NCBI GenBank assembly: GCA_009777415.1
Contig: WRLX01000004.1
Coordinates: 1 to 41,226 of the forward strand
Length of the DNA: 41,226 nt
Origin: Oscillospiraceae bacterium
GTDB taxonomy: Bacteria > Bacillota > Clostridia > Oscillospirales > Ruminococcaceae
Direction: 5' to 3'
Below the pieces are notes generated by a model. That model was not told where the DNA came from. It saw only the letters and a program-made list of their open reading frames with translations, and did no database searches. A program made the position numbers and the translations under genes. Each line of letters begins with the position of its first letter. Positions within the stretch are counted from its first letter, which is position 1. This document shows, piece after piece, positions 3,502 to 39,722 of the stretch.

Positions 3502-3506
3502 TTTTA

Positions 3507-3666
3507 GAACCTGTCTTCATAAGCAAACGCACTGCTAAAACGGCGAATTTTCTGCCATACTGCGTTGATTTTTGCTTAAATATGCACGGATATTCGCACA
3601 AAAATCGCCTTGTCTGACGAAAAATCCCGCTCGTTTTATCAGCACGTCGCTTATGAAGACAGGTTC
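3507..3666 (+). repeat. Family-C long-hairpin MITE-like element C1, TSD TTA
   Basis: GAACCTGTCTTCATAAGC...GCTTATGAAGACAGGTTC flanked by TTA both sides; core CCATACTGCGTTGATTTTTGC...GCACAAAAATCGCCTTGTCTGACGAAAAATC. Confidence 0.88.
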
Positions 3667-3722
3667 TTAGTCTGAGGCAACTAACTTACAAAAAAATAAA
3701 ATGTAATATGGAGATAGAGTAA

Positions 3723-6657: not shown

Positions 6658-6865
6658 TCTTTTACCCTTTCCCCTTCTGCACAAGTGTGCTATATAAATT
6701 CGTTTTCCCATTTAACCGGAGTTTTGATTTCAATCTTTTACCCTTTCCCCCTCTGCACAAGTGTGCTATATAAATTCGTTTTCCCATTTAACCGGAGTTT
6801 TGATTTCAATCTTTTACCCTTTCCCCTTCTGCACAAGTGTGCCACATAAATTTATTTTCCCCGTT
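6658..6865 (-). repeat. Family-A tandem leader array (about 3 units, period 76 bp) upstream of leuS
   Basis: Repeated CTCCGGTTAAATGGGAAAACGAATTTATATAGCACACTTGTGCAG(A/G)GGGGAAAGGGTAAAAG; uORFs 6662-6733 and 6738-6809. Confidence 0.92.
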
Positions 6866-7724
6866 TACCGGAGACTACGGACAGCAACAGCTCACGCAGG
6901 ACTTTTCCCGCAGTTGCCGCACAAACTCCGTTGTTATCATATGGCGGAGAGTATTCCGCTAAATCTGCGCCTACAATGTTCATATTCATCGTAACACAAA
7001 ACTCCTTAATCATTCCCCGCAGGTAATTAAACCGCCATCCACCCGCCTCGGGAGTCCCCGTTGCGGGAAATTCGGACGGGTCAAGTACATCAAGGTCAAT
7101 TGTCATATATACGGGAGTATTTCCCAAGTCTCTCCCCAAATCCCGTTCAAAGTCCCCGTTTATGAATACCCGCTCTTTTGACCACTTAAATTCTTCGCGA
7201 GTTCCCGAGCGTATGCCGAAGCTGTGGATTTTATTATCGCCGACTAATTCCCAAGCCCGCCGCATTACACAAGCGTGGGACAGCTTTTCGCCGAGGTACT
7301 CATCGCGCAAGTCCGTGTGTGCGTCAAAGTGGATTATGTGCAAATCGGGATACTTTTCAAGGCAAGCTTCAACTGCGGGCAATGTTACAAGATGTTCCCC
7401 CCCGAGCATAATCGGGATTTTATTATCGTACACAATATCGCTTGCCCCCGCCTTGACAATACCGAGTACTTTTTCGGTATTACCGAACGGCAACTCTAAC
7501 TCGCCCGAATCAAACACTTTTATATCGCTCAAATCACGCTCTAAATAAGGGCTGTATGTTTCAAGCCCGTAGCTTTCACTGCGGATTACCTTTCCGGCAA
7601 ACCGCGTACCGGGTCGGTAGGATGTGGTCCCGTCAAATCCCGCGCCGAATAAAACAATGTCTGCGGATTCGTAATCACTGTCGCATCCGATAAACCTGTC
7701 GGTAATAATAGATTTGTTTAACAT
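6852..7724 (-). CDS. speB: Agmatinase / ureohydrolase family
   Basis: GGEHLVTLPAVEA, IHFDAHTDLRDEY, DLDVLDPSEFPATGTPEAGG. Confidence 0.92.
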   Translation of the reverse strand: MLNKSIITDRFIGCDSDYESADIVLFGAGFDGTTSYRPGTRFAGKVIRSESYGLETYSPYLERDLSDIKVFDSGELELPFGNTEKVLGIVKAGASDIVYDNKIPIMLGGEHLVTLPAVEACLEKYPDLHIIHFDAHTDLRDEYLGEKLSHACVMRRAWELVGDNKIHSFGIRSGTREEFKWSKERVFINGDFERDLGRDLGNTPVYMTIDLDVLDPSEFPATGTPEAGGWRFNYLRGMIKEFCVTMNMNIVGADLAEYSPPYDNNGVCAATAGKVLRELLLSVVSGKRGK

Positions 7725-7727
7725 ATA

Positions 7728-7806
7728 CTTTTACCCATGCCCTTTCTGCACAAATGTGCCATAAAAATTCGCTTTCCCATTTGCGTAGACTTATTTTCAA
7801 ACTTTT
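7728..7806 (-). repeat. Family-A leader upstream of speB (uORF frame shifted by 1 nt)
   Basis: GTTTGAAAATAAGTCTACGCAAATGGGAAAGCGAATTTTTATGGCACATTTGTGCAGAAAGGGCATGGGTAAAAG. Confidence 0.85.
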
Positions 7807-7819
7807 TAACTCCCGATTT

Positions 7820-8713
7820 TCAACTCTCAACTCTTAAATCCCAACCCTCAACACCCCGCAATAGTTCCTCTACATAAGTCGGCAAGGCAAATGCACCCCT
7901 GTGCAGATTTGTATTGTAATAGCGGCTCTTGATTCCCAAAGCGTTCCACCTTTCGTCTTGTAAATCGTTGGTGGGGTGAATTTTCTTGCTCGCGAATCCG
8001 AAAAGCCAATGCCCCGAAGGATAGGTCGGGATATGCGCCTGATACACTTTGCTAATCGGGAAAGACTCGACTATTCGCTTATGCGCCCGTTGCATTGCTG
8101 CCGCGTCTTTGTGGTAAAACGGGCTTTCGTGCTGATTAACCATGATTCCGTTTTCGGTAAGCGCGTTAAAGCAGTTGCCGTAAAACTCTTTCTTAAACAA
8201 TCCCTCGCCCGGCCCTTGCGGGTCTGTGGAATCGACTATTATTATATCGTAGGCATTTTCACGGCTACGCACGAATTTTAACCCGTCTTGATAGTAAATA
8301 CTAAGTCTCGGGTCATCGAAGCAACAGGCAGTCCCCGGCAAAAACTCTTTACAAGCTTTTACCACAATCTCATCAATTTCAACCATGTCAATTTTTGTAA
8401 TACAACTATAGCGGCACAGCTCGCGGATTGCTCCGCCGTCCCCCGCGCCTATAACCAACACAGAGCCTGTACCTTTATCCGACAAGTGAGGCAATGCTGC
8501 CGCCATGGGTACGTGTACAATCATGTCATGGTAGATGAACTCGTCCCGCTCGCTCAACATCATAAATCCGTCAAGAGTTAAGAACCGCCCGAACTCCTCC
8601 GATTCAAACACGTCTATTCGCTGTATTCCGGATTCCGCCGAAAAAAGTTGTTTTGTGACTTTAATCGAAAGCTTTACCGTTTTTGTGTGACACTCGTTAA
8701 ACCACAAATCCAT
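7820..8713 (-). CDS. speE: Spermidine synthase
   Basis: VLVIGAGDGGAIRELCRY, IIVDSTDPQGPGEGLF, adjacent to speB; start trimmed to MDLWFNE. Confidence 0.95.
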   Translation of the reverse strand: MDLWFNECHTKTVKLSIKVTKQLFSAESGIQRIDVFESEEFGRFLTLDGFMMLSERDEFIYHDMIVHVPMAAALPHLSDKGTGSVLVIGAGDGGAIRELCRYSCITKIDMVEIDEIVVKACKEFLPGTACCFDDPRLSIYYQDGLKFVRSRENAYDIIIVDSTDPQGPGEGLFKKEFYGNCFNALTENGIMVNQHESPFYHKDAAAMQRAHKRIVESFPISKVYQAHIPTYPSGHWLFGFASKKIHPTNDLQDERWNALGIKSRYYNTNLHRGAFALPTYVEELLRGVEGWDLRVES

Positions 8714-8985
8714 GTTTTTACCCTTGTCCTTTCTGACCATGTGAGCTATAAAAGTTTCGTTTTCCGCATTTACGCAGATTTACTTTCAAACTTTTTACCC
8801 TTGCCCTGTCTGACTAAGTGAGCTATAAAAGTTTCGCTTTCCGCATTTACGCAGATTTACTTTCAAACTTTTTACCCTTGCCCTTTCTGACCATGTGAGC
8901 TATAAAAGTTTCGTTTTCCGCATTTACGCAGATTTACTTTCAAACTTTTTACCCTTGCCCTTTCTGACTAAGTGAGCCTCGCATA
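8714..8985 (-). repeat. Family-A tandem leader array (>3 units, exact 77-bp period) upstream of speE
   Basis: ACCC cores at 8721, 8798, 8875, 8952; uORFs 8718-8789, 8795-8866, 8872-8943. Confidence 0.95.
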
Positions 8986-9711: not shown

Positions 9712-9747
9712 TTCAAGCGGCGGGTTATGCAAAACCGCCGCTTATAT
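9712..9747 (+). terminator. Putative intrinsic terminator
   Basis: AAGCGGCGGGTTATGCAAAACCGCCGCTTATATT. Confidence 0.65.
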
Positions 9748-9749
9748 TA

Positions 9750-9908
9750 TTAATCCGCAACAAAACTCTTATACACTTTGCCTTGTATTTTTGCCGCCGT
9801 ACTGCGTTGATTTTTGTTCAAATATAAGCGTATATTCTCGCAAAAATCGCCTTGTCTGCCGACAAAAATTCTGCGGCAAATAGCGTCAAGACTTCCGTTG
9901 CGAATTAA
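9750..9908 (+). repeat. Family-C element C2 (same core, different arms)
   Basis: CCGTACTGCGTTGATTTTTGTTC...GCAAAAATCGCCTTGTCTGCCG; imperfect arms CGCAACAAAACTCTT/AAGACTTCCGTTGCG. Confidence 0.75.
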
Positions 9909-11079: not shown

Positions 11080-11108
11080 TTGACAACAACTCCAAATTCT
11101 GTTATACT
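11080..11108 (+). promoter_or_regulatory. Sigma-A promoter upstream of 94-aa gene and nrdG
   Basis: TTGACA-N17-TATACT. Confidence 0.85.
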
Positions 11109-11117
11109 TTTATTTAA

Positions 11118-11156
11118 TGGCACATTTGTGCAGAAAGGCAAGGGTAAAAGTTTGAA
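11118..11156 (+). promoter_or_regulatory. Family-A hairpin/SD at the predicted mRNA 5' end
   Basis: GGCACATTTGTGCAGAAAGGCAAGGGTAAAAGTTTGAA. Confidence 0.85.
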
Positions 11157-11441
11157 ATGGAAAAAAAACAGAAATTTTACACATACAAGGGCTATCACTT
11201 GGTAAGAAAAGGAAATGTGATTTACTACGGGAATATGTCGGGGGATTATGTCACTAAAATTGACATTCAATCAACCCGCAAGGAAAAAGAGCTTGAAATT
11301 GCCAACAAGCTGAGGATTGTGCTTATGCCTACCGACACCGAAAAGCCGCTTGATATAAACAAGATGAAATCAGCGGGCAAGGAAACGCTTTATGAGGCGT
11401 TGCAGGTTGCCCACACATGGCTTGAAAAAGCGAATGGCTAA
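11157..11441 (+). CDS. Small protein of unknown function (94 aa)
   Basis: Clean ORF with consensus promoter and family-A leader directly upstream. Confidence 0.75.
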   Translation: MEKKQKFYTYKGYHLVRKGNVIYYGNMSGDYVTKIDIQSTRKEKELEIANKLRIVLMPTDTEKPLDINKMKSAGKETLYEALQVAHTWLEKANG

Positions 11442-11445
11442 GAAT

Positions 11446-11486
11446 TGTATTTTGTGCAAGGTGGGGCGGCATGGTCATAAAAATGA
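11446..11486 (+). promoter_or_regulatory. Truncated family-B leader upstream of nrdG
   Basis: TTTTGTGCAAGGTGGGGCGGCATGGTCATAAAAATG. Confidence 0.75.
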
Positions 11487-11974
11487 AAATAAGAGTTGCG
11501 GGGATTGTGAAAAATTCAATAGTTGACGGACCGGGGATTCGTTATGTCGTATTTGCCCAAGGTTGTCGCTTTAAATGCAAGGGGTGTCACAATTCCCACA
11601 CCCATGACAAGCTGGGCGGATTGTCGGTCGATGTGCAGCAAATTGCCGCGGAAATAAAGAGCGACCCGCTTTTGGATGGGGTGACATTTTCGGGCGGCGA
11701 GCCTTTTGAGCAAGCTGTGGTATTTGCAAATCTCGCCGCGCTTATTTCAGAACTCGGCTTAAACATTATCTGCTACACAGGATACACCTTTGAGGAGTTG
11801 TACGAAAACCCGGATATGCATATGCTTCTTAATAAGGTTGACGTATTGGTAGACGGGCGGTTCGAACTGAACAGGAAAAACCCGAGGCTGAAATTCAGAG
11901 GGAGCGATAATCAGCGTGTAATCGACGTAAAGGAGAGTTTTAAATGTGAAAAAGCGGTTGAGATTAATTGGTAG
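11471..11974 (+). CDS. nrdG: Anaerobic ribonucleotide reductase activating protein (radical SAM)
   Basis: VDGPGIRYVVFAQGCRFKCKGCHNSHTHD (CxxxCxxC), TFSGGEPFEQ. Confidence 0.9.
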   Translation: MVIKMKIRVAGIVKNSIVDGPGIRYVVFAQGCRFKCKGCHNSHTHDKLGGLSVDVQQIAAEIKSDPLLDGVTFSGGEPFEQAVVFANLAALISELGLNIICYTGYTFEELYENPDMHMLLNKVDVLVDGRFELNRKNPRLKFRGSDNQRVIDVKESFKCEKAVEINW

Positions 11975-13587: not shown

Positions 13588-13595
13588 GTATATAA

Positions 13596-13759
13596 TATAG
13601 TCGATTAACTTAAGAATCACTAAATCTTTGCGGAAAAATTTCCCGCCATACTGCGTTGAATTTTGCTTAAATATCAGCGGATATTCGCACAAAATTCGCC
13701 TTGTCTGACGAAAAATCTTCACGCAAATTTTCAAGCACTTCTTAAGTTAAACGACTATA
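13596..13759 (+). repeat. Family-C element C3 (same core, arms TATAGTCGwTTAACTTAAGAA)
   Basis: Core CCATACTGCGTTGAATTTTGC...GCACAAAATTCGCCTTGTCTGACGAAAAATC. Confidence 0.85.
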
Positions 13760-14032: not shown

Positions 14033-14545
14033 ATGGTCGTAAAAATGGCACATTTACAGCATTTTAATCCTACTTTCAGTTTTGAGCCGCCTTTGCCGCC
14101 GGAAGCGAAAATCTCATTGAGTGCGTCTTCGTACAATATGTGTATGAAAGGCTTAAACATTCCTGTTCAGATAACGAGTGTTCCGTTAGATAAATCTGAA
14201 CAGCCTAAAAATGTTATTGTGATGGCGCATTTGAGCGTTGGGGCTTTTTCAACTTGCATTGATGAAAAGTTGGCGACCGCACTTGAACTGTTTCCTGTAG
14301 GAAAGTCGCGAATTCAGACAATCGGCGGGTTTAAAAAGGTAAAAAAGTATATAGTCACCGTATCTTTCCCCAATACCAATTTAAGGGGGAATTTGATGTA
14401 CGTTGTCGGCTGTGACTTGGCGTATAAGGGCAATGCCTCAAATTTAGACCCCAATAATTTCAGCGTTTTGATAGGACGCGATATAACCGCAAACTGGAAT
14501 ATAGTCTGGAACGGGCCTACCTCAACTGCGTTTATTTCAGACTAA
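14033..14545 (+). CDS. Retropepsin-like (aspartyl protease fold) protein, active-site Asp apparently lost
   Basis: MAHLSVGAFSTCIDEKLATALEL...SVLIGRDITANWNIVWNG pattern; SVGA where DTGA expected. Confidence 0.6.
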   Translation: MVVKMAHLQHFNPTFSFEPPLPPEAKISLSASSYNMCMKGLNIPVQITSVPLDKSEQPKNVIVMAHLSVGAFSTCIDEKLATALELFPVGKSRIQTIGGFKKVKKYIVTVSFPNTNLRGNLMYVVGCDLAYKGNASNLDPNNFSVLIGRDITANWNIVWNGPTSTAFISD

Positions 14546-14648
14546 CAGGGTTTTACCCCACTCTTTTATGCGTTTATTTCAGACCGGCAGGGTTTTACCC
14601 CACTCTTTTATGCGTTTATTTCAGACTGACAGGGGTTTACCCCATTTG
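14531..14648 (+). repeat. 42-bp tandem repeat (2.8 copies) at the 3' end of the retropepsin-like gene
   Basis: TTTATTTCAGACTAACAGGGTTTTACCCCACTCTTTTATGCG repeated at 14531, 14573, 14615. Confidence 0.93.
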
Positions 14649-14719
14649 TAACACAATTGCCGCCTTTTGAATATACTGTACTGTATTCAAAATAATCTTA
14701 ATGTAGAGGTGGTGTATTT

Positions 14720-19843: not shown

Positions 19844-19883
19844 TTTTACCCTTTTACCCTTTCCCTTTCTGAACAAGCTCATT

Positions 19884-20043
19884 ATTACCCCACCAACAAA
19901 GTCTTAGCCTCCGTCGCTTGTCTTTTCGCCGCCATACTTCGTTGATTTTTCATTAAATATCATCAGATATTCGCAGAAAAATCGCCTCGTCTGACGACGA
20001 AAATCCTGCGTGCCAAAAGCCAACACTTTGTTGGTGGGGTAAT
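19884..20043 (+). repeat. Family-C element C4 (same core, arms ATTACCCCACCAACAAAGT), inserted in the ahcY family-A leader
   Basis: Core CCATACTTCGTTGATTTTTCATT...GCAGAAAAATCGCCTCGTCTGACG; flanked by split family-A sequence at 19846-19883 and 20044-20106. Confidence 0.85.
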
Positions 20044-22114: not shown

Positions 22115-22258
22115 AGGGGAGAGTTTGAAAAGTAAGAAAGGAAGAACCACCATGCCGCAAAGTCAAAGAAGAGCAACGGTGCAACGGGCTTTGCCCGTTG
22201 GCAGGTTACTTGACATATTGAGTTTTGTACAAGGTGGGGCGGCATGGTCATAATTATG
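22115..22258 (+). promoter_or_regulatory. Family-B leader of sigma gene with 51-nt in-frame insertion; uORF 22125-22253
   Basis: MKSKKGRTTMPQSQRRATVQRALPVGRLLDILSFVQGGAAWS*. Confidence 0.8.
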
Positions 22259-22807
22259 GATGATATAAAAATCATTGAGCTTTACGAAAACCGCGACCAA
22301 CAGGCGGTTGTCGAAAGCCAAATCAAGTATGGTAAGCTCCTTTACAGTATATCGTATGGGGTTTTATCAAATCGCATGGATAGCGAGGAGTGCGTCAATG
22401 ACACGTATCTAAACACATGGAACTCGATTCCGCCGCAAAAGCCGCAGAATCTCATGGCATACTTAGGGCGGATTGTCCGTAACTTATCAATCGACAAATG
22501 GCACAAAGAACGCTCAAAGAAGCGCGGCGGCGGCTATCTGCTTACGGAGTTGTCCGACTGTATTCCGTCAGGCAGTTCAGTTGAGGGGGCTATCGAAAAC
22601 AACAAACTATCCGAAGTCATCGAGAAATGGCTAAATTCTCTGCCTCAAGATGAGCGTGTGTTGTTTATGCGACGGTATTGGTTTGGTGAATCGCTTGACA
22701 GTTTGGCAAAAGAGACAGAAACTCCCGCTAACAATCTTGCAGTACGTATATTTCGTCTGCGAAAAAAACTGAAATTAACTTTAGAAAAGGAAGGTATTTC
22801 GTTATGA
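22244..22807 (+). CDS. ECF-type RNA polymerase sigma factor
   Basis: MDSEECVNDTYLNTWNSIPP, LGRIVRNLSIDKWHKE, LPQDERVLFMRRYW. Confidence 0.9.
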   Translation: MVIIMDDIKIIELYENRDQQAVVESQIKYGKLLYSISYGVLSNRMDSEECVNDTYLNTWNSIPPQKPQNLMAYLGRIVRNLSIDKWHKERSKKRGGGYLLTELSDCIPSGSSVEGAIENNKLSEVIEKWLNSLPQDERVLFMRRYWFGESLDSLAKETETPANNLAVRIFRLRKKLKLTLEKEGISL

Positions 22808-24499: not shown

Positions 24500-25831
24500 T
24501 TATTGCAATTTCGCCAATAATGCGGCTTTTTCCTCTTCAAAGCCCGGCTTTCCGAGGAGTGCGAACATATTTTTCTTATAAGATTCAACTCCGGGTTGGT
24601 CAAAAGGATTCACCCCGAGTATGTAGCCGGAAACTGCGCAAGCTTTTTCAAAGAAGTAGATTAAATACCCCAACTCAAACTCATCCGGCTTAGGCAATTC
24701 GAGAACAATATTGGGGGTATTCCCCTCTGTATGCGCCAATAGCGTACCTTGAAAAGCCTTTTCGCTTACATTAGACATATTTTGCCCCGAAAGGAAGTTC
24801 AGCCCATCGGAATTACCCGGGTCGTTTTCGAGGAAAAAGTCCGACTCCGTTTCCTTAAACCACAAGACCGTTTCAAATATAATATTCGAGCCGTCTTGGA
24901 TATATTGCCCCAACGAGTGTAAATCCGTTGAAAATATTGCCGAAGCGGGGAACAGCCCCTTGCCGTCCTTGCCCTCGCTCTCTCCGAAGAGTTGTTTAAA
25001 CCATTCATTCATCATCATAAATGAATTTTCATAAGATACGAGCATCTCAATCGCGAAGCCTTTGCGCAACAGTATATTGCGAACAGCAACGTATTTATAG
25101 CAGTCATTACAGTTCAAGTCGGGGTTGGCTGTATCAGCCATGGCAGCACCTGCCCCCGCCATAAGAGCATCAATGTCACATCCCGCAACCGCAATCGGCA
25201 AAAGCCCGACTGCCGTCAAAACCGAGTATCTCCCACCCACATCATCGGGGATTACAAAGGTTTCATAGCCTTTTTCGTCCGCCAATGTCTTGAGAGTCCC
25301 CCTTGATTTATCGGTAATGGCGAATATACGCTCTTTCGCCCCCGCCTCACCGTAACGCTTTTCGATAATCTGCTTAAACACACGAAACGCCAATGCCGTC
25401 TCGGTAGTAGTGCCGGATTTGGAAACTACTATTACAGAAAACTCTTTGTCCTTAACAAGCGACAAAACCTCGTTCATATAAGCGGGCGAAAGGCTGTTCC
25501 CCGCAAAATAGAGTTGCGGAGTTGCGGTTGAGTTGTACAAACTACCTTTGATTGCCTCAATAACTGCCCGTGCGCCTAAGTAAGAACCGCCGATTCCGAG
25601 GACAATGACCACCTCCGAATTCGCTCTTATTTTAGCGGCACTCTCCTTAATTCGCGCAAATTCAGACTTGTCGTAGTTTTGAGGAAGATTAAGCCAACCC
25701 AAAAAATCGTTGCCCGCGCCATTGCCGGAATGAAGCGCGTTATGCGCAAGCTCACAAGCCGGAGCAATGAGGGAAAGCTCATTCTCTTGTATAAACCCCT
25801 TTAAAAAAGCAGAATTGATTTTGACAGCCAT
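24500..25831 (-). CDS. pgi: Glucose-6-phosphate isomerase
   Basis: [48 protein letters not shown]. Confidence 0.96.
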
Positions 25832-25835
25832 ATTT

Positions 25836-25945
25836 TCACCCCATTCCTTTCCGGCTCCGACAAGCCATGAAAATGCATTTTCCGCACAACCTCAGATTTA
25901 TTTTCAAACTTTTTTACCCTTGCCCCTTCTGCACAAACGTGCCGT
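25836..25945 (-). promoter_or_regulatory. Family-A leader of pgi; divergent 24-codon uORF 25836-25907 [23 protein letters not shown]
   Basis: GGCACGTTTGTGCAGAAGGGGCAAGGGTAAAAAAGTTTGAAAATAAATCTGAGG...GTGAAAATATGG. Confidence 0.8.
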
Positions 25946-26045
25946 GAAAAATTATTTAAAAATTTATTTTTTTCTCATTATACAACAAAAGTTTGGAAAA
26001 ATCAAGCGTTTTCATAAAAATTTTTAAACTTATTAAAAATTCATC

Positions 26046-28904: not shown

Positions 28905-28923
28905 GCGGAAAGTTTGAAAATAA

Positions 28924-29084
28924 GAACCTGTCTTCATAAGCGACGTGCTGATGAAGTAAGCGATATTTTTCGTCAGACAAGGCAATTTTGACGATAATAT
29001 CCGTTGATATTTGAGGAAAAATTAACGCAGTATGGCGGAAAATATCGCCGATTTAGCAGTGCGTTTGCTTATGAAGACAGGTTC
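28924..29084 (-). repeat. Family-C element C5, TSD TAA, inserted in the rsmD family-B leader
   Basis: Same arms as C1; removing element plus one TAA restores TTTGAAAATAAGAAAGGAAGAACCACCATGCCG. Confidence 0.88.
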
Positions 29085-29087
29085 TAA

Positions 29088-29157
29088 GAAAGGAAGAACC
29101 ACCATGCCGCCAAATTTCATTGGTTTTTGTGCAAGGTCGGGCGGCATGGTCATAAAA
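29088..29157 (+). promoter_or_regulatory. Family-B leader of rsmD (3' part, after family-C insertion)
   Basis: AAAGGAAGAACCACCATGCCGCCAAATTTCATTGG...GGGCGGCATGGTCATAAAAATG. Confidence 0.8.
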
Positions 29158-29724
29158 ATGCGAGTTATTACCGGGACTTCTAAAGGAGTAAACTTAAATG
29201 CGTTGTCGGGAACAGGGACACGACCTACCACCGATAAAGTAAAGGAAGCTGTTTTTTCGGCAATTCAAGCAATCGTTGATATTGAGGGTGCAACAGTCCT
29301 TGATTTATTTGCAGGTTCGGGGCAGCTTGGGATTGAAGCACTAAGCAGAGGGGCAAAAAAAGCTTACTTTAACGACAATAATCCGAAAGCGGCGATGATT
29401 ATCCGCGAAAACTTAAAAAAAACGGGCTTCGGCGACAGTCGATATTCAAGGGTTGGCAGGCTTCCTTATTCCGCGTTCATGCGGTTAGTAAAGGACGAAT
29501 TTGACATTGTGTTTCTTGACCCGCCCTATGAAAAAGGAATTATTGAAAAGGCATTGCCGTTGGCGGTGTCCAAAATGAATACGGGTGATTCGGGCGGCGT
29601 TATAGTATGTGAGCACGAAAAGTCTCTGATTCTGCCGGAAAAAGTCGGGGTGTTCGGGGTCGAAAAAGTGTACCTTTACGGTTCGATTAATGTTACAATA
29701 TATACACCCCTCAACCAATGTTAG
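29158..29724 (+). CDS. rsmD: 16S rRNA (guanine966-N2)-methyltransferase
   Basis: MRVITGTSKGVNLNALSGTGTRPTTDKVKEAVFSAI, VLDLFAGSGQLGIEALSRG, FLDPPY; in-frame ATG also at 29146. Confidence 0.93.
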   Translation: MRVITGTSKGVNLNALSGTGTRPTTDKVKEAVFSAIQAIVDIEGATVLDLFAGSGQLGIEALSRGAKKAYFNDNNPKAAMIIRENLKKTGFGDSRYSRVGRLPYSAFMRLVKDEFDIVFLDPPYEKGIIEKALPLAVSKMNTGDSGGVIVCEHEKSLILPEKVGVFGVEKVYLYGSINVTIYTPLNQC

Positions 29725-29876: not shown

Positions 29877-30359
29877 ATGAAAACTGCGATTTATCCGGGG
29901 AGTTTTGACCCGGTAACCTATGGGCATATTGATATAATAGAAAGGGCGGCAAAGCTTTTCAGTAAGCTAATCGTAGTTGTTTCGATTAATCCGGTTAAGC
30001 CCTCCACCTTTACTACCGAGGAACGTATGGATTTCTTACGCAGGAGTCTTAAATTCCGTCGGAACATTGAAATTGACTGCAATTCGGGGTTGTTCATCGA
30101 CTATTTTAAAAAGCGCGATGCCGATGTAATTGTAAAGGGGTTACGTGCAATGTCGGACTTTGAGTATGAATTTCAAATGGCGTTAATTAACAAGGATATG
30201 CACCACACTGCCGAAACAATATTTTTATCTGCGAACGCGGCGAGTATGTTCCTTTCATCGAGTGCGGTAAAACAGATTGCCATGTTTGGCGGCGATATAA
30301 GCGCGTTTGTGCCTGATTGTATCGCAGGCGATATTATAGAGCGGCTGAAGTGTCGGTAA
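29877..30359 (+). CDS. coaD: Pantetheine-phosphate adenylyltransferase
   Basis: AIYPGSFDPVTYGHIDIIERAA, VKGLRAMSDFEYEFQMA. Confidence 0.97.
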   Translation: MKTAIYPGSFDPVTYGHIDIIERAAKLFSKLIVVVSINPVKPSTFTTEERMDFLRRSLKFRRNIEIDCNSGLFIDYFKKRDADVIVKGLRAMSDFEYEFQMALINKDMHHTAETIFLSANAASMFLSSSAVKQIAMFGGDISAFVPDCIAGDIIERLKCR

Positions 30360-30446
30360 ATGGGGAAAATGAATTTATATAGCACACTCTTGTGTAAGTG
30401 TGCAGAAAGGGCAAGGGTAAAAAACTTGAATATCAATTCTCGGTAA
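30360..30446 (+). CDS. Putative leader ORF 1 of coaD-distal relay (MGKMNLYSTLLCKCAERARVKNLNINSR*)
   Basis: ATG immediately follows coaD stop (TAAATG); ends CGGTAA abutting ORF 2. Confidence 0.45.
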   Translation: MGKMNLYSTLLCKCAERARVKNLNINSR

Positions 30447-30506
30447 ATGGGAAAAATGAATTTATATAGCACACTTAGTGCAGAAAGGGCAAGGGTAAAA
30501 ACTTGA
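30447..30506 (+). CDS. Putative leader ORF 2 of coaD-distal relay (MGKMNLYSTLSAERARVKT*)
   Basis: ATG immediately follows leader ORF 1 stop (TAAATG); TGA overlaps TTG start of next gene (TTGA). Confidence 0.45.
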   Translation: MGKMNLYSTLSAERARVKT

Positions 30507-30970
30507 ATATTGAAGAAATACTTGCGATGATGGATGAAATTCTTGACAGGGCTGTCGCAGTTCCGTTCAGCGGGCGAAAAAGTCTCATTGACGTGGAGGC
30601 GATGAACAATCTAATCCACGACATCCGCATGAACCTGCCGCGCGAGATTGACCAAGCGCGTGGCGTAGTAAACGAGCGTAAACAGTTAATCTCCGACGCA
30701 AGCAGGGAAGCGGACAGAATTATTAAACGGGCTGAAGAGCGAGCAAACCAGATGGTTGCCGCGCAGGAGGTTGTCAGAATGGCTCAAATGCGTGCGGAAG
30801 AATTAATGATAAACGCGCAACAAAGGTCTAAGGAGCTACATCACACAAGCAGAGACCATGTTGACGAAATGCTCGAAAAAACGGAGACTTTGTATTTAAA
30901 AAACCTTGAGGAAATCAGAAAATCACGTATGGCAATCAAAAATGTAGGCAACAAAAACACAGGAAGATGA
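30503..30970 (+). CDS. Coiled-coil (ATPase-like) protein of unknown function
   Basis: Long charged helical ORF downstream of coaD; TTG start. Confidence 0.75.
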   Translation: MNIEEILAMMDEILDRAVAVPFSGRKSLIDVEAMNNLIHDIRMNLPREIDQARGVVNERKQLISDASREADRIIKRAEERANQMVAAQEVVRMAQMRAEELMINAQQRSKELHHTSRDHVDEMLEKTETLYLKNLEEIRKSRMAIKNVGNKNTGR

Positions 30971-32068: not shown

Positions 32069-32240
32069 TCTTTTACCCTTGCCCTTTTTAAACAAGTACG
32101 TTATAAAAATTTCGTTTTCCGCACTTACGCAGATTTACTTTCAAACTTTTTTACCCTCGCCTTTTTAAACAAGTACGTTATAAAAATTTCGTTTTCCGCA
32201 CTTACGCAGATTTACTTTCAAACTTTTTTACCCTTGCCCC
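32069..32240 (-). repeat. Family-A tandem leader array upstream of mnmA (period 77-78 bp)
   Basis: ACCC cores at 32076, 32154, 32231; uORFs 32088-32144 and 32165-32221 MKVNLRKCGKRNFYNVLV*. Confidence 0.92.
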
Positions 32241-33901
32241 TAAGCTGTCTCAATTGCGGCTTCTTCCTCAAGCTTTAAATTTTCAATCGCCATGTCCCTT
32301 AGAACAAACTTTTGGATTTTTCCACTCGCGGTCAATGGGAATTTTTCAACAAACATAACTCTTTTGGGGACTTTGTGTTTAGCGAGATTTTTATTAACGT
32401 ATGACTTTATTCCGTCTTCGTCTGCTTCCGCACCTTCTTTCAAAACAACAAATGCGCAGACCTCTTCGCCGTATCTTTGCGATGGAATCGCAACAATTGC
32501 AACGTCTTTGACAGCAGGGTGAGTGTAAATAAAATCCTCTATTTCTTTCGGGAAAATGTTTTCGCCGCCGCGGATAATCATGTCTTTAATTCGCCCTGTT
32601 ATTTTGTAATACCCTTCTGCATCAACCGTTGCCAAGTCCCCGGTGTGAAGCCAACCGTCACTGTCAATCGCGGCTTTAGTCGCCTCCTCAAGCTTATAAT
32701 AGCCTTTCATCACGTTGTAGCCTCTTACACAAAACTCGCCTGCAACTCCGATACCGACTTCTTCACCTGTTTCGGGTTCGACAATTTTCGTTTCCATAAA
32801 CGGCAAGGTTTTGCCGACTGTGTGCACTCGCTTTTCCAAGCTGTCCTCAATAGTAGTCTGTGTACACACCGGCGATGCTTCTGTTTGACCGAATGCAATC
32901 GTTATATCTTTCATGTTCATTTTGTTAACAACATCCTGCATAACTTTAATGGGGCAGGGTGAACCCGCCATAATCCCTGTACGCAGCGTTGAGTAATCGT
33001 ATTTGTCAAAGTCCCTATGCTCCAACACCCCTATAAACATAGTAGGCACACCGTGCAATGCAGTGCATCTTTCATACTCGACAACGTGCATTACTTTCAT
33101 CGGCGTATACCAAAGCAGCGGAACCATTGTACTCCCGTGCGTAACACAAGCCATTATTGCAAGCACCATTCCGAAACAATGAAAAAACGGGACGGGGATG
33201 CAAAGTCGGTCTTTCTCGGTAAATCTCATGCAGTCGCCTATTGAAAGCCCGTTGTTGACAATGTTATTATGAGTAAGCATTACGCCTTTCGGAAACCCGG
33301 TAGTACCCGAAGTGTACTGCATATTAATCACGTCATCGGGATGAAGGCTCGCTTTTCTTTCCTTAAATTCGGTCGATGAAACAAGAACGCCAAACGCCTC
33401 AATATCATTCCAGTGATACATACCTTTATAATGGTTGTCAAAAGAAACCACTATTTTTAATTCGGGCAACTTTTCGGATTTTAAATCGCCTTTCCTGCAG
33501 GTTTTAAGCTCGGGGCATATAGAATAGACAATTTTTTCACAGTCTATATCTTTTAAACCGTCGCATATAAACAATGCCTTGGAGTCGGACTGTTTCAAAA
33601 GAAACTCCAGTTCGCTTTCCTTATAATTAGTGTTGACCGTTACAAGCACAACCCCAATTCTCGCAGTCGCAAACATCAACACGAGCCACTGTGGGTAGTT
33701 GGTTGCCCAAACCGCCGCATGGTCACCTTTTTTCAGCCCCATTCCCATAAGCCCTTTGGCAATGCGGTCTACCTTTTGGTTGAACTCGTACCATGTCTTA
33801 TCGAATTCCATTTCAATGTACTTGACCGCTTGATGTGTCGGGAATTTTAACGCTGTTTCCTCCAACGCCTCCCCAATTGTTATGTTCCTTAACCCTTCCA
33901 T
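32240..33901 (-). CDS. AMP-binding acyl-CoA synthetase
   Basis: MQYTSGTTGFPKGVMLTHNNIVNN, GWLHTGDLATVDAEGYYKITGRIKDMIIRGGENIFPKEIE. Confidence 0.93.
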   Translation of the reverse strand: MEGLRNITIGEALEETALKFPTHQAVKYIEMEFDKTWYEFNQKVDRIAKGLMGMGLKKGDHAAVWATNYPQWLVLMFATARIGVVLVTVNTNYKESELEFLLKQSDSKALFICDGLKDIDCEKIVYSICPELKTCRKGDLKSEKLPELKIVVSFDNHYKGMYHWNDIEAFGVLVSSTEFKERKASLHPDDVINMQYTSGTTGFPKGVMLTHNNIVNNGLSIGDCMRFTEKDRLCIPVPFFHCFGMVLAIMACVTHGSTMVPLLWYTPMKVMHVVEYERCTALHGVPTMFIGVLEHRDFDKYDYSTLRTGIMAGSPCPIKVMQDVVNKMNMKDITIAFGQTEASPVCTQTTIEDSLEKRVHTVGKTLPFMETKIVEPETGEEVGIGVAGEFCVRGYNVMKGYYKLEEATKAAIDSDGWLHTGDLATVDAEGYYKITGRIKDMIIRGGENIFPKEIEDFIYTHPAVKDVAIVAIPSQRYGEEVCAFVVLKEGAEADEDGIKSYVNKNLAKHKVPKRVMFVEKFPLTASGKIQKFVLRDMAIENLKLEEEAAIETA

Positions 33902-33960
33902 TTTTACCCTTTTACCCTTTCCCTTTCTGCACAATCGTGCTTTAAAAATTCGTTTTCCAA
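33902..33960 (-). repeat. Family-A leader of acyl-CoA synthetase gene
   Basis: AAATTGGAAAACGAATTTTTAAAGCACGATTGTGCAGAAAGGGAAAGGGTAAAAGG. Confidence 0.85.
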
Positions 33961-33961
33961 T

Positions 33962-34612
33962 TTAGAACCTGTCTTCACAAGCGGCCTCTTCGCCGTTTTC
34001 AGTATTTTCATCGCCGTCATCAAAGCTTATTTCGCAATCGCTCAAAGCGGATTTGAGTTTATTTTGTTGTTCCTCGCTTATTTGGTTTTGACCTAACCAC
34101 AATTGCTTCAGTTCCGTCAATCCTGTAAGCGGGGTAATATCGCTTATTTGGTTGCGCCACAAGTCAAGAGTCTCCAACTTTGTCATTGAGCCGAGCGGCG
34201 AAACATCATCAATTCTGTTGTCGTCAAGTAAAAGCACTGTCAAGTTAGTCAAACCGCTCAATGCCGATACATCAATTATATTGTTTCCGAACAACCACAG
34301 TTCGGTCAAATTAGTCATGTATTGCAATTGCTCTATGTCCGCACTCCTCAAGCTTTTGTAGGACAAATCCAACACTGTTAAATCGGTGCTGTAAGTTTCG
34401 CTTCTGATTGTAATAAACTCGGGGATTTGAGCTTCCGCCGCTATGTCATTTCCCGCCCCCCCCGAATAAGTAATAATCAGCCAAACCGCCGCCGCCAACG
34501 CAACAATGCCGACAGTAATACCGATTATAAGTTTAATCGGTATTATTATTATATCATCATCTTTTTTAGTCATAACACACACCATGTGTGATTTACCGCA
34601 TATGCCGAGCAA
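33962..34612 (-). CDS. Membrane-anchored leucine-rich-repeat (internalin-type) protein
   Basis: TM anchor; LTELWLFGNNIIDVSALSGLTNLTVLLLDDNRIDDVSPLGSMTKLETLDLWRNQISDITPL. Confidence 0.85.
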   Translation of the reverse strand: MLGICGKSHMVCVMTKKDDDIIIIPIKLIIGITVGIVALAAAVWLIITYSGGAGNDIAAEAQIPEFITIRSETYSTDLTVLDLSYKSLRSADIEQLQYMTNLTELWLFGNNIIDVSALSGLTNLTVLLLDDNRIDDVSPLGSMTKLETLDLWRNQISDITPLTGLTELKQLWLGQNQISEEQQNKLKSALSDCEISFDDGDENTENGEEAACEDRF

Positions 34613-34895: not shown

Positions 34896-35040
34896 ATTTT
34901 TATCCTTGTCCTTTCTGAACGAACGTAAATTTAAAGTTCGTTTTCCGCACTTACGTATATTTTCTTTTGAAGTTCTTTACCCTTGTCCTTTCTGAACGAA
35001 CGTGCTACTAAAAACTCGTTTTACCCTTGTCCTTTCACAC
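34896..35040 (-). repeat. Family-A leaders (about 2 units) between PHP and TSCPD genes
   Basis: AAAGGACAAGGGTAAAACGAGTTTTTAGTAGCACGTTCGTTCAGAAAGGACAAGGGTAAAG... Confidence 0.85.
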
Positions 35041-36879: not shown

Positions 36880-37413
36880 TTACACCATTCCCTTATAATA
36901 ATCTAATGTTTTGAAAGTTTTGCCTAAGTGATACAACAGGTATTTTTCCGAATCTTCTGTTTTCAATTTTGGGTGGTTGATTCCCAAAGCATGAATCAAC
37001 TTCATCTCGAAGGTTGATTTTACTTGCTCGTGAGGGCTTCCGTGTTCTAACTCGGTCAGCGCAATCAGCATTGATTTCAGTGTTTCGCCCGCCGATTGCT
37101 CGGGCAGTTGAGTAAACTTGACTAATTCCGCAAAATACGACGCTAACGATAAAGCCGACAGGTCGCCGCTCAAACTGTGAAACCCATGCTTGCATTTTGC
37201 AGAATTTATAGTATACTTCAAGTTTTTCTTGTTCAAACAAAATGCCGAGTAGGTGAACAGCCCCGTCGGTTGAGCTAACGGGTTGTTCAATTTTTTTACA
37301 CCTTTTGCCGCAACCTCAATAACCCCGTATTCCCCCGTAAAAATATCAACAAAGCAAGAAGAGTCGCCAAAATCCCGCCGCGATATTACAAGCCCGTCCA
37401 CATTAACCAACAT
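36880..37413 (-). CDS. recO: DNA repair protein RecO, short form without obvious zinc finger
   Basis: VDGLVISRRDFGDSSCFVDIFTGEYGVIEVAAKGVKKLNNPLAQPTGLFTYSAF; only 177 aa; next to era. Confidence 0.85.
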   Translation of the reverse strand: MLVNVDGLVISRRDFGDSSCFVDIFTGEYGVIEVAAKGVKKLNNPLAQPTGLFTYSAFCLNKKNLKYTINSAKCKHGFHSLSGDLSALSLASYFAELVKFTQLPEQSAGETLKSMLIALTELEHGSPHEQVKSTFEMKLIHALGINHPKLKTEDSEKYLLYHLGKTFKTLDYYKGMV

Positions 37414-37500
37414 CTTTACCCTTGCCCCTTATACACAAGTATGAATTGAAAAGTTTCGTTTTCCCCGTTTACGTAGATTTATTACTACCTTTTACCCTTT
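37414..37500 (-). repeat. Family-A leader between era and recO
   Basis: AAAGGGTAAAAGGTAGTAATAAATCTACGTAAACGGGGAAAACGAAACTTTTCAATTC... Confidence 0.8.
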
Positions 37501-38388: not shown

Positions 38389-38489
38389 TGTTATGACCAT
38401 ATCTTTCCGAGGCATAAAAGCCTCTATGAATAAGCCTGTCAAGCGGACTGCCCACCGGCGAAGCCGATGACACCTCCGCTATTATTCAA

Positions 38490-38672
38490 ACTTTTACCCT
38501 TGCCCTTTCTGCACAAACAATTTATTAAAAGTTTCGTTTCCCGCATTACACAAGTTTGATTTCAACCCTTTTTACCCTTGCCCTTTCTGCACAAACAATT
38601 TATTAAAAGTTTCGTTTCCCGCATTACACAAGTTTGATTTCAACCCTTTTTACCCTTGCCCTTTCTGCTTTT
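38490..38672 (-). repeat. Family-A tandem leader array between dgkA and era (period 78 bp)
   Basis: ACCC cores at 38497, 38575, 38653; uORFs 38572-38643 and 38494-38565 MKSNLCNAGNETFNKLFVQKGQG*. Confidence 0.92.
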
Positions 38673-39168: not shown

Positions 39169-39614
39169 CTTATTATACCGAGTTTCTGCAAAATCTGTTC
39201 TTGTTTTGCGAACATGATTTGCTCATCGGATTTGTTAATATGGTCGTAGCCGAGAAGATGCAACATTCCGTGTACAGTCAAAAACGCCATTTCCCGCTCA
39301 AGTGAATGCCCGTATTGGTTAGCCTGTCTGACAGCCGTGGGTACCGAAATAATGACATCTCCAAGCACTACCGACTTGTCCTCATAATTAGGCTCGCCCA
39401 TCAAGAATGACAACACATCGGTAGAACTGTCAATTTTTCTGTACTGTTTGTTAAGCGTGCGTATGTCCTCATCCGATACGAGAGTCATCGACGCTTCCGA
39501 TACATAGGGGTATTTCTCATGCTGTAAAACCTTACAACAGGTTTTGTAGGCAAGTGGGCGGAAATTCAACCCCGATTTTACCTTATCGTCATAGAAAAGC
39601 TTAAAATTCACCAT
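39165..39614 (-). CDS. ybeY: Endoribonuclease YbeY
   Basis: LNKQYRKIDSSTDVLSFLM, LGDVIISVPTA, VHGMLHLLGYDH. Confidence 0.95.
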   Translation of the reverse strand: MVNFKLFYDDKVKSGLNFRPLAYKTCCKVLQHEKYPYVSEASMTLVSDEDIRTLNKQYRKIDSSTDVLSFLMGEPNYEDKSVVLGDVIISVPTAVRQANQYGHSLEREMAFLTVHGMLHLLGYDHINKSDEQIMFAKQEQILQKLGIIR

Positions 39615-39722
39615 TTTTATGACCATGCCGCCCCACCTCGCACAAAACACAATGAAATTTGCGGCATGGCGGTTATTCCTTTCTTGTTTTTCAAACTTTA
39701 CCCTTTTCCCTTCTGCACAGAC
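39615..39722 (-). promoter_or_regulatory. Family-A end plus family-B leader between phoH and ybeY; uORF 39617-39694 MKNKKGITAMPQISLCFVRGGAAWS*
   Basis: GTGCAGAAGGGAAAAGGGTAAAGTTTGAAAAACAAGAAAGGAATAACCGCCATGCCGC...GCGGCATGGTCATAAAAATG. Confidence 0.85.

Follow-up and report, generated by a model that had tools for sequence, protein, structure and literature searches.

The window, meaning the whole 41,226-nt stretch analysed here, forms contig C4 of an assembly (1.78 Mb, 162 contigs) that is 87% complete. The closest named relatives of its LeuS are found in Oscillospiraceae MAGs, several of which carry isolate names from a termite-gut MAG series, and these names together with PMC7024585 link the genome to the termite gut. 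On the minus strand of the window, a tandem array lies between a sigma-70-type promoter and the spermidine synthase gene speE.

7820-8713, minus strand: speE, spermidine synthase (Pfam Spermine_synth, E 5.7e-56)
8715-8791, minus strand: unit 3 of the speE array (gene-proximal); 2 nt separate its end, AGAAAGGACAAGGGTAAAA, from the speE ATG (8713)
8792-8868, minus strand: unit 2 of the speE array
8869-8945, minus strand: unit 1 of the speE array (promoter-proximal full unit)
8946-8977, minus strand: partial unit of 32 nt in the speE array, with the first SD segment GCTCACTTAGTCAGAAAGGGCAAGGGTAAAA
9001-9029, minus strand: sigma-70-type promoter TTGCAA-17-TATAAT, upstream of the speE array

TRF places the array at 8715-8977, directly before speE, with a period of 77, 3.4 copies and 94% matches. 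The exact 77-bp period that the first-pass annotation had described upstream of speE is thereby confirmed. The 77-nt spacing of its ACCC landmarks is also exact, although their positions were one base off and are actually 8720, 8797, 8874 and 8951. When the window was shuffled 50 times with its dinucleotide content preserved, no array with a period of 55-110 arose. The other arrays named earlier, of 76, 77 and 78 bp, are likewise present, and the identities of speE, leuS, mnmA and era were confirmed by Pfam. Single and double units occur elsewhere in the window.

6658-6873, minus strand: 76-bp array of 2.8 copies directly before leuS (start 6657) (TRF, Pfam)
7728-7802, minus strand: single unit before the agmatinase/arginase gene (6852-7724)
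11106-11149, plus strand: single unit with its 5' part lost and the SD-bearing 3' part kept, preceded by a promoter-like TTGACA..TATACT
25833-25985, minus strand: two units before ORF 24500-25831
30354-30501, plus strand: two units before ORF 30503-30970
32071-32238, minus strand: 77-bp array of 2.2 copies before mnmA (TRF, Pfam)
33909-33964, minus strand: 5'-truncated single unit before the AMP-binding gene 32240-33934 (gene by Pfam)
34897-35036, minus strand: two units
37415-37489, minus strand: single unit before ORF 36880-37413
38492-38668, minus strand: 78-bp array of 2.3 copies upstream of era, with a different leader insert in between (TRF)

The 78-bp array had been assigned to era and does lie upstream of it, but it does not directly adjoin the gene, from which it is separated by another repeat (AAGTTTGAATAATAGCGGAGGTG...). 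The leuS array extends into the arginase-family gene at its 3' end (6852-6873, minus strand); the product of that gene ends in ..LLLSVVSGKRGK before the stop here and in ..LLLSI before the stop in G020.

Several other repeats share the window. A second leader family (376-470, 11436-11494, 22122-22267 and 29074-29169 on the plus strand, 39603-39699 on the minus strand) has the anatomy AAGTTTGAAAAATAAGAAAGGN..GAACCACCATGCCGC...TTTGTGCAAGGTGGGGCGGCATGGTCATAA-NN-ATG with a long inverted repeat. Its left end, AAGTTTGAA, is common to the main family, and 22 of its 35 sample tails end exactly 2 nt before an ORF start. A third leader family, AAGTTTGAATAATAGCGGAGGTGTCACCGGCTTCGCCGGTGAGCAGTCCGCTTGACAGGCTTATTCATGGAG..., is located at ~38400-38492 (minus strand) and also in L133, L138, L139 and L020; it often directly follows a GGGTAAAA tail and has its own end before the start codon. 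A dispersed repeat of ~120-180 bp with MITE-like inverted ends (TTAGAACCTGTCTTCATAAGC / GCTTATGAAGACAGGTTCTAA) occupies 3504-3669, 9746-9875, 13595-13724, 19881-20010 and 28913-29043, and main-family units sometimes abut it. Finally, a 42-bp tandem array of 2.8 copies, TGCGTTTATTTCAGACTGACAGGGTTTTACCCCACTCTTTTA, is present between genes at 14527-14652 (minus strand).

Unit family and its position at translation starts

An iterated HMM was applied to 806 kb of stretches chosen regardless of the repeat, and it detected 296 units at 183 sites, of which 110 are single, 43 double, 21 triple, 8 quadruple and 1 quintuple. Extrapolation to the whole genome gives roughly 400 sites. The sample contains 644 genes of 120 aa or more, and 145 of them (22%) have a unit. 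An ATG-initiated ORF of at least 60 aa starts within -5 to +13 of the site end at 143 of the 183 sites in the sense orientation, compared with 2 of 183 in the antisense control and 7.9% of random positions. When ORFs of at least 40 aa with any start are considered, 172 of the 183 sites abut one, and the spacing from unit to start is exactly 2 nt in 110 of these 172.

The sense consensus of the unit is AAGTTTGAAAGTAAATCTGCGTAAATGCGGAAAACGAAACTTTTATAGCACACTTGTGCAGAAAGGGCAAGGGTAAAA-NN-ATG, with the least variation in TTGAAA, GGAAAAC, the CTTT block and GTGCAGAAAGG. The 3' end consists of a Shine-Dalgarno-like AGAAAGG, 14 nt from the start codon, followed by ..GGGTAAAA, which usually leaves 2 nt to the start codon. 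Truncations at the 5' end are common, and the 3' end is almost always kept. Judged by motif ranking, AGAAAGG is very probably the SD, because in the relative G026, too, it is the upstream motif found most often, and other relatives have AGAAAGG/GAAAGGA among their high-ranking motifs. The 16S gene, sought for its anti-SD tail, was not found in the assembly and MAGs searched.

An additional SD-like match, resident at the gene, lies 4-20 nt upstream of the first full unit at 95% of sites (match of at least 5 nt at 65%), compared with 44% (at least 5 nt, 10%) in a control region further upstream. In flanks free of family sequence the proportion is still 94% (at least 5 nt, 60%), and the strongly diverged version of the unit in G026 shows the same tendency (84%; at least 5 nt, 44%). 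The order is therefore resident SD, unit or units, unit SD and start codon. The first-pass annotation had missed this arrangement: the unit is placed between two ribosome-binding sites, and the SD that adjoins the start codon is its own.

Array homogeneity and distribution among relatives

The suggestion that one module has been locally duplicated or homogenised at many genes holds, because mean unit identity is 94.6% within arrays and 73.7% between arrays (95% versus 74%), and for 115 of 129 array units the most similar unit belongs to the same array. Partial units at the left ends of arrays cluster at 20-35 nt, which corresponds to the SD-bearing segment. TRF periods show a sharp peak at 76-77; arrays of period 73-79 number 63 in 806 kb, or 63 of the 72 with a period of 55-110. 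Arrays with periods of 76-79 also occur outside the main family (L131:5518-5863, L015:2899-3050, L026:11966-12265 and L131:1-225). The third of these (plus strand) is a 76-bp array of 4 copies at a gene with an SMC-like N-terminus; its unit is unrelated in sequence to the main family and includes the ATG of the gene itself together with the first ~10 codons, and the units of L131:1-225 similarly contain their own start codon and a short ORF. Near-identical 76-bp arrays stand at two contig ends, L014:1-170 and L131:1-225; arrays therefore probably break the assembly, so that the longest are under-counted.

Empty sites were surveyed in G020, the closest element-free relative, over 400 kb and three loci, and 29 orthologous genes were compared. 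No match to the family was found in the G020 genome, and no array of 73-79 bp in the 400 kb. The clearest of the 29 orthologues is L013, which here reads ...GAAAAGATAAGGGGGATGA, two units, TAATGCCGAA, against ...GAAAAGATAAGGGGGATGATGTAATGCCGAA in G020; in short form, the junctions are GATAAGGGGGATGA, 2 units, TAATGCCG against GATAAGGGGGATGATGTAATGCCG. At speE, TTGCAA-17-TATAAT (9029-9001) is followed by the array and then by ATGGATTTGTGG. The promoter is similar in G020, where the -35/-10 pair TTGCAAAC..TAAAAT is followed by a short leader, GCAGGGCTTTAAGAAAGGATATAAAC-ATGGATTTATGG (also given as GCTTTAAGAAAGGATATAAAC-ATGGATTTATGG), which is ordinary, ~30 nt long and without a unit. The rplS gene of G019 has a unit where its relatives have GAAAGGAA..ATG, and leuS has one unit in L093 and none in its relative L096. 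Insertion at these sites is suggested by comparison with relatives at ~75% protein identity, not with near-identical genomes, and unit loss in G020 may be the alternative. No clean target-site duplication could be defined at the inserts compared with relatives.

In the genus, 54 of 59 relatives are without the unit. Copies number hundreds in this genome and G026, tens in G019 and few in G011, G069 and G080, with none in the rest of the genus genomes searched, and in the low-copy genomes the unit likewise lies directly before starts. Between this genome and G026, 4 orthologues share occupancy, 9 and 8 are private and 51 are occupied in neither (Fisher p 0.21); occupancy is close to independent and is not conserved between the species. 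Copy numbers of orthologue pairs, compared at the species level, were 4 versus 2, 3 versus 1 and 2 versus 4. An exact-pattern scan of a named genome collection gave no match outside this genome, which is consistent with a lineage-specific sequence. Among viral contigs, only IMGVR_UViG_3300031673_011394 matched the exact GAAAGGGCAAGGGTAAAA tail (L265:1059-1076), and it possibly represents a phage of a host having this leader; the G026-type core had no match in the viral contigs searched.

Proposed origin and alternative explanations

The position, orientation and SD content of the units, the double SD, the homogeneity of the arrays and the absence from the relative were all observed directly. 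We consider it probable, though well short of certain, that the unit is a short interspersed sense leader repeat that settles between the original SD and the start codon, supplies a new SD and amplifies in tandem. This leader-insert reading is based on the position, the SD pairs, the array homogeneity and the element-free leader of G020 at speE. In the proposed mechanism, an SD-bearing segment R of ~20-30 bp would flank the body on both sides (R-body-R), and slippage or unequal recombination between R copies would produce R-(body-R)n arrays that are homogeneous locus by locus. In the mRNA, the SD of the last copy would serve the gene. The upstream copies may act as a chain of SD/NTG mini-ORFs that load ribosomes early and pass them on through termination and reinitiation; translation or mRNA stability could thereby change with copy number. 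An NTG is present at 173 of 197 unit starts (88%) and the frame is open for at least 20 codons in 69%, but about a quarter have early stops; in G026, TTA replaces TTG at the start position in 18 of 43 flank-tested copies.

If this is right, a spreading repeat has come to occupy the translation start of about a fifth of the genes of one bacterium; this would have happened within a single genus, largely independently in at least two species and with no conserved target genes. The 5' leaders and ribosome-binding sites of genes would be replaceable wholesale by a repeat, and the arrays would offer a natural series of 1 to 5 SD copies for studying the effects of tandem SDs and reinitiation. One would then have to ask by what process DNA comes to be placed between an SD and a start codon.

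The repeat may instead be neutral or selfish, with copies arising anywhere and persisting mainly where the SD has become indispensable, and with copy number having no regulatory role. The patchy spread (two species with hundreds of copies, four with few and most with none), the near-independent occupancy of orthologues and the frequent 5' truncation with retention of the SD end are all in line with such an origin. However, neutral copies should accumulate antisense or away from starts, where almost none are found, and bodies that are dispensable for the SD are often full-length and near-identical. We regard this explanation as possible but doubtful.

Somewhat less likely still is a mobile SD cassette, inserted 2 nt before starts by a dedicated, start-codon-directed process and then amplified at a period of ~76-78 bp; in a few species it would have rewritten translation initiation at hundreds of genes. 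In such a cassette, several unrelated middles would have the left end AAGTTTGAA in common, as well as an SD-bearing right end that closes with TAA(AA)NN-ATG. The exact 2-nt spacing could come from selection on SD spacing, not from targeted insertion. As for candidate movers, a Y1 transposase (PF01797), and hence a RAYT, is absent from this assembly (87% complete) and G026, and a reverse transcriptase (PF00078) is absent from this assembly, G026 and G019.

A structured cis-regulatory RNA at many genes, either riboswitch-like or a protein-binding leader, appears improbable. Hairpins can be drawn (TTTGAAAGT/ACTTTCAAC, CUGCG-UAAA-UGCGG and GCAC-GUGC), and CUUUC is complementary to the GAAAG of the SD. 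For 106 sites, RNAalifold gives a structure (-11.5) with an inner hairpin and, covering the SD, a CUUUC..GAAAG helix; short forms such as those of L012 and L019 have lost the loop while keeping the outer stem. The top covariation, however, is driven by subfamily structure and not by pairs, and the GCAC/GUGC stem is only slightly in excess (124 versus 112 +/- 3.5 in shuffles), with no excess at sites without the consensus arm. Rfam covariance models gave no match at the gathering score and none at E <= 5, and neither the gene set nor the occupancy is conserved. A uORF for a conserved leader peptide that acts through its amino-acid sequence, for example in attenuation, is the least credible of the alternatives: many units do read MKVNLRKCGKRNF..QKGQG-stop, in keeping with the open frames and NTG starts given above, but there is no third-position excess and no frame-specific synonymous excess between or within arrays, the frame changes from one subfamily to the next with unit length (72-75 nt, NTG to end), and the sequence is different in G026.

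Two further candidates were rejected. Promoter-like pairs occur in 3% of elements versus 21% of 75-nt upstream flanks, which is not expected of a promoter inside the unit, and the spacers that a CRISPR array would require to be unique are near-identical within arrays.

Comparison with known systems

Searches of open-licence papers gave no description of such an SD-carrying repeat between SD and start codon. By analogy, the unit would work like a small interspersed repeat of the MIRU or BOX type and be placed like the TAACTGA repeats of Beggiatoaceae. MIRU units contain small ORFs that overlap adjacent genes. In Mycobacterium tuberculosis, 77-bp MIRU repeats lie between senX3 and regX3, with 2 versus 3 copies in BCG strains (PMC9392950). 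The likeness, one of arrangement, lies in short tandem units of ~77 bp in intergenic or operonic positions with variable copy number, and the dispersed, locus-specific units found here, with 2-5 copies at 73 of 183 sites, form an arrangement of the MIRU type. The lineages are unrelated, however, and here a single unit family stands before ~22% of genes, downstream of the resident SD and upstream of the start codon.

BOX elements of Streptococcus pneumoniae are modular, with a variable tandem boxB, and can affect downstream genes and create ORFs; they are found in intergenic regions of many kinds, with an excess between convergent genes (PMC3049150). Both are modular interspersed repeats with a tandemly variable middle, but BOX elements are built as boxA-(boxB)n-boxC in mixed orientations and positions, whereas the units here would be R-(body-R)n and are found in the sense orientation only, at start codons. 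REP/BIME elements with RAYT also have hundreds of short dispersed copies, some of them in tandem; here, by contrast, no Y1 transposase was found in this genome or G026, and the position of the unit is fixed at start codons. The TAACTGA direct repeats of marine Beggiatoaceae are forward tandem repeats that lie a few nt before many start codons and are patchy between relatives (PMC4679880). They resemble the present arrays in being forward and tandem, in ending just before starts and in their patchy occurrence. Their units, however, are 7 nt long, have little SD character and overlap the place of the SD, whereas those described here are ~77 nt long and carry an SD.
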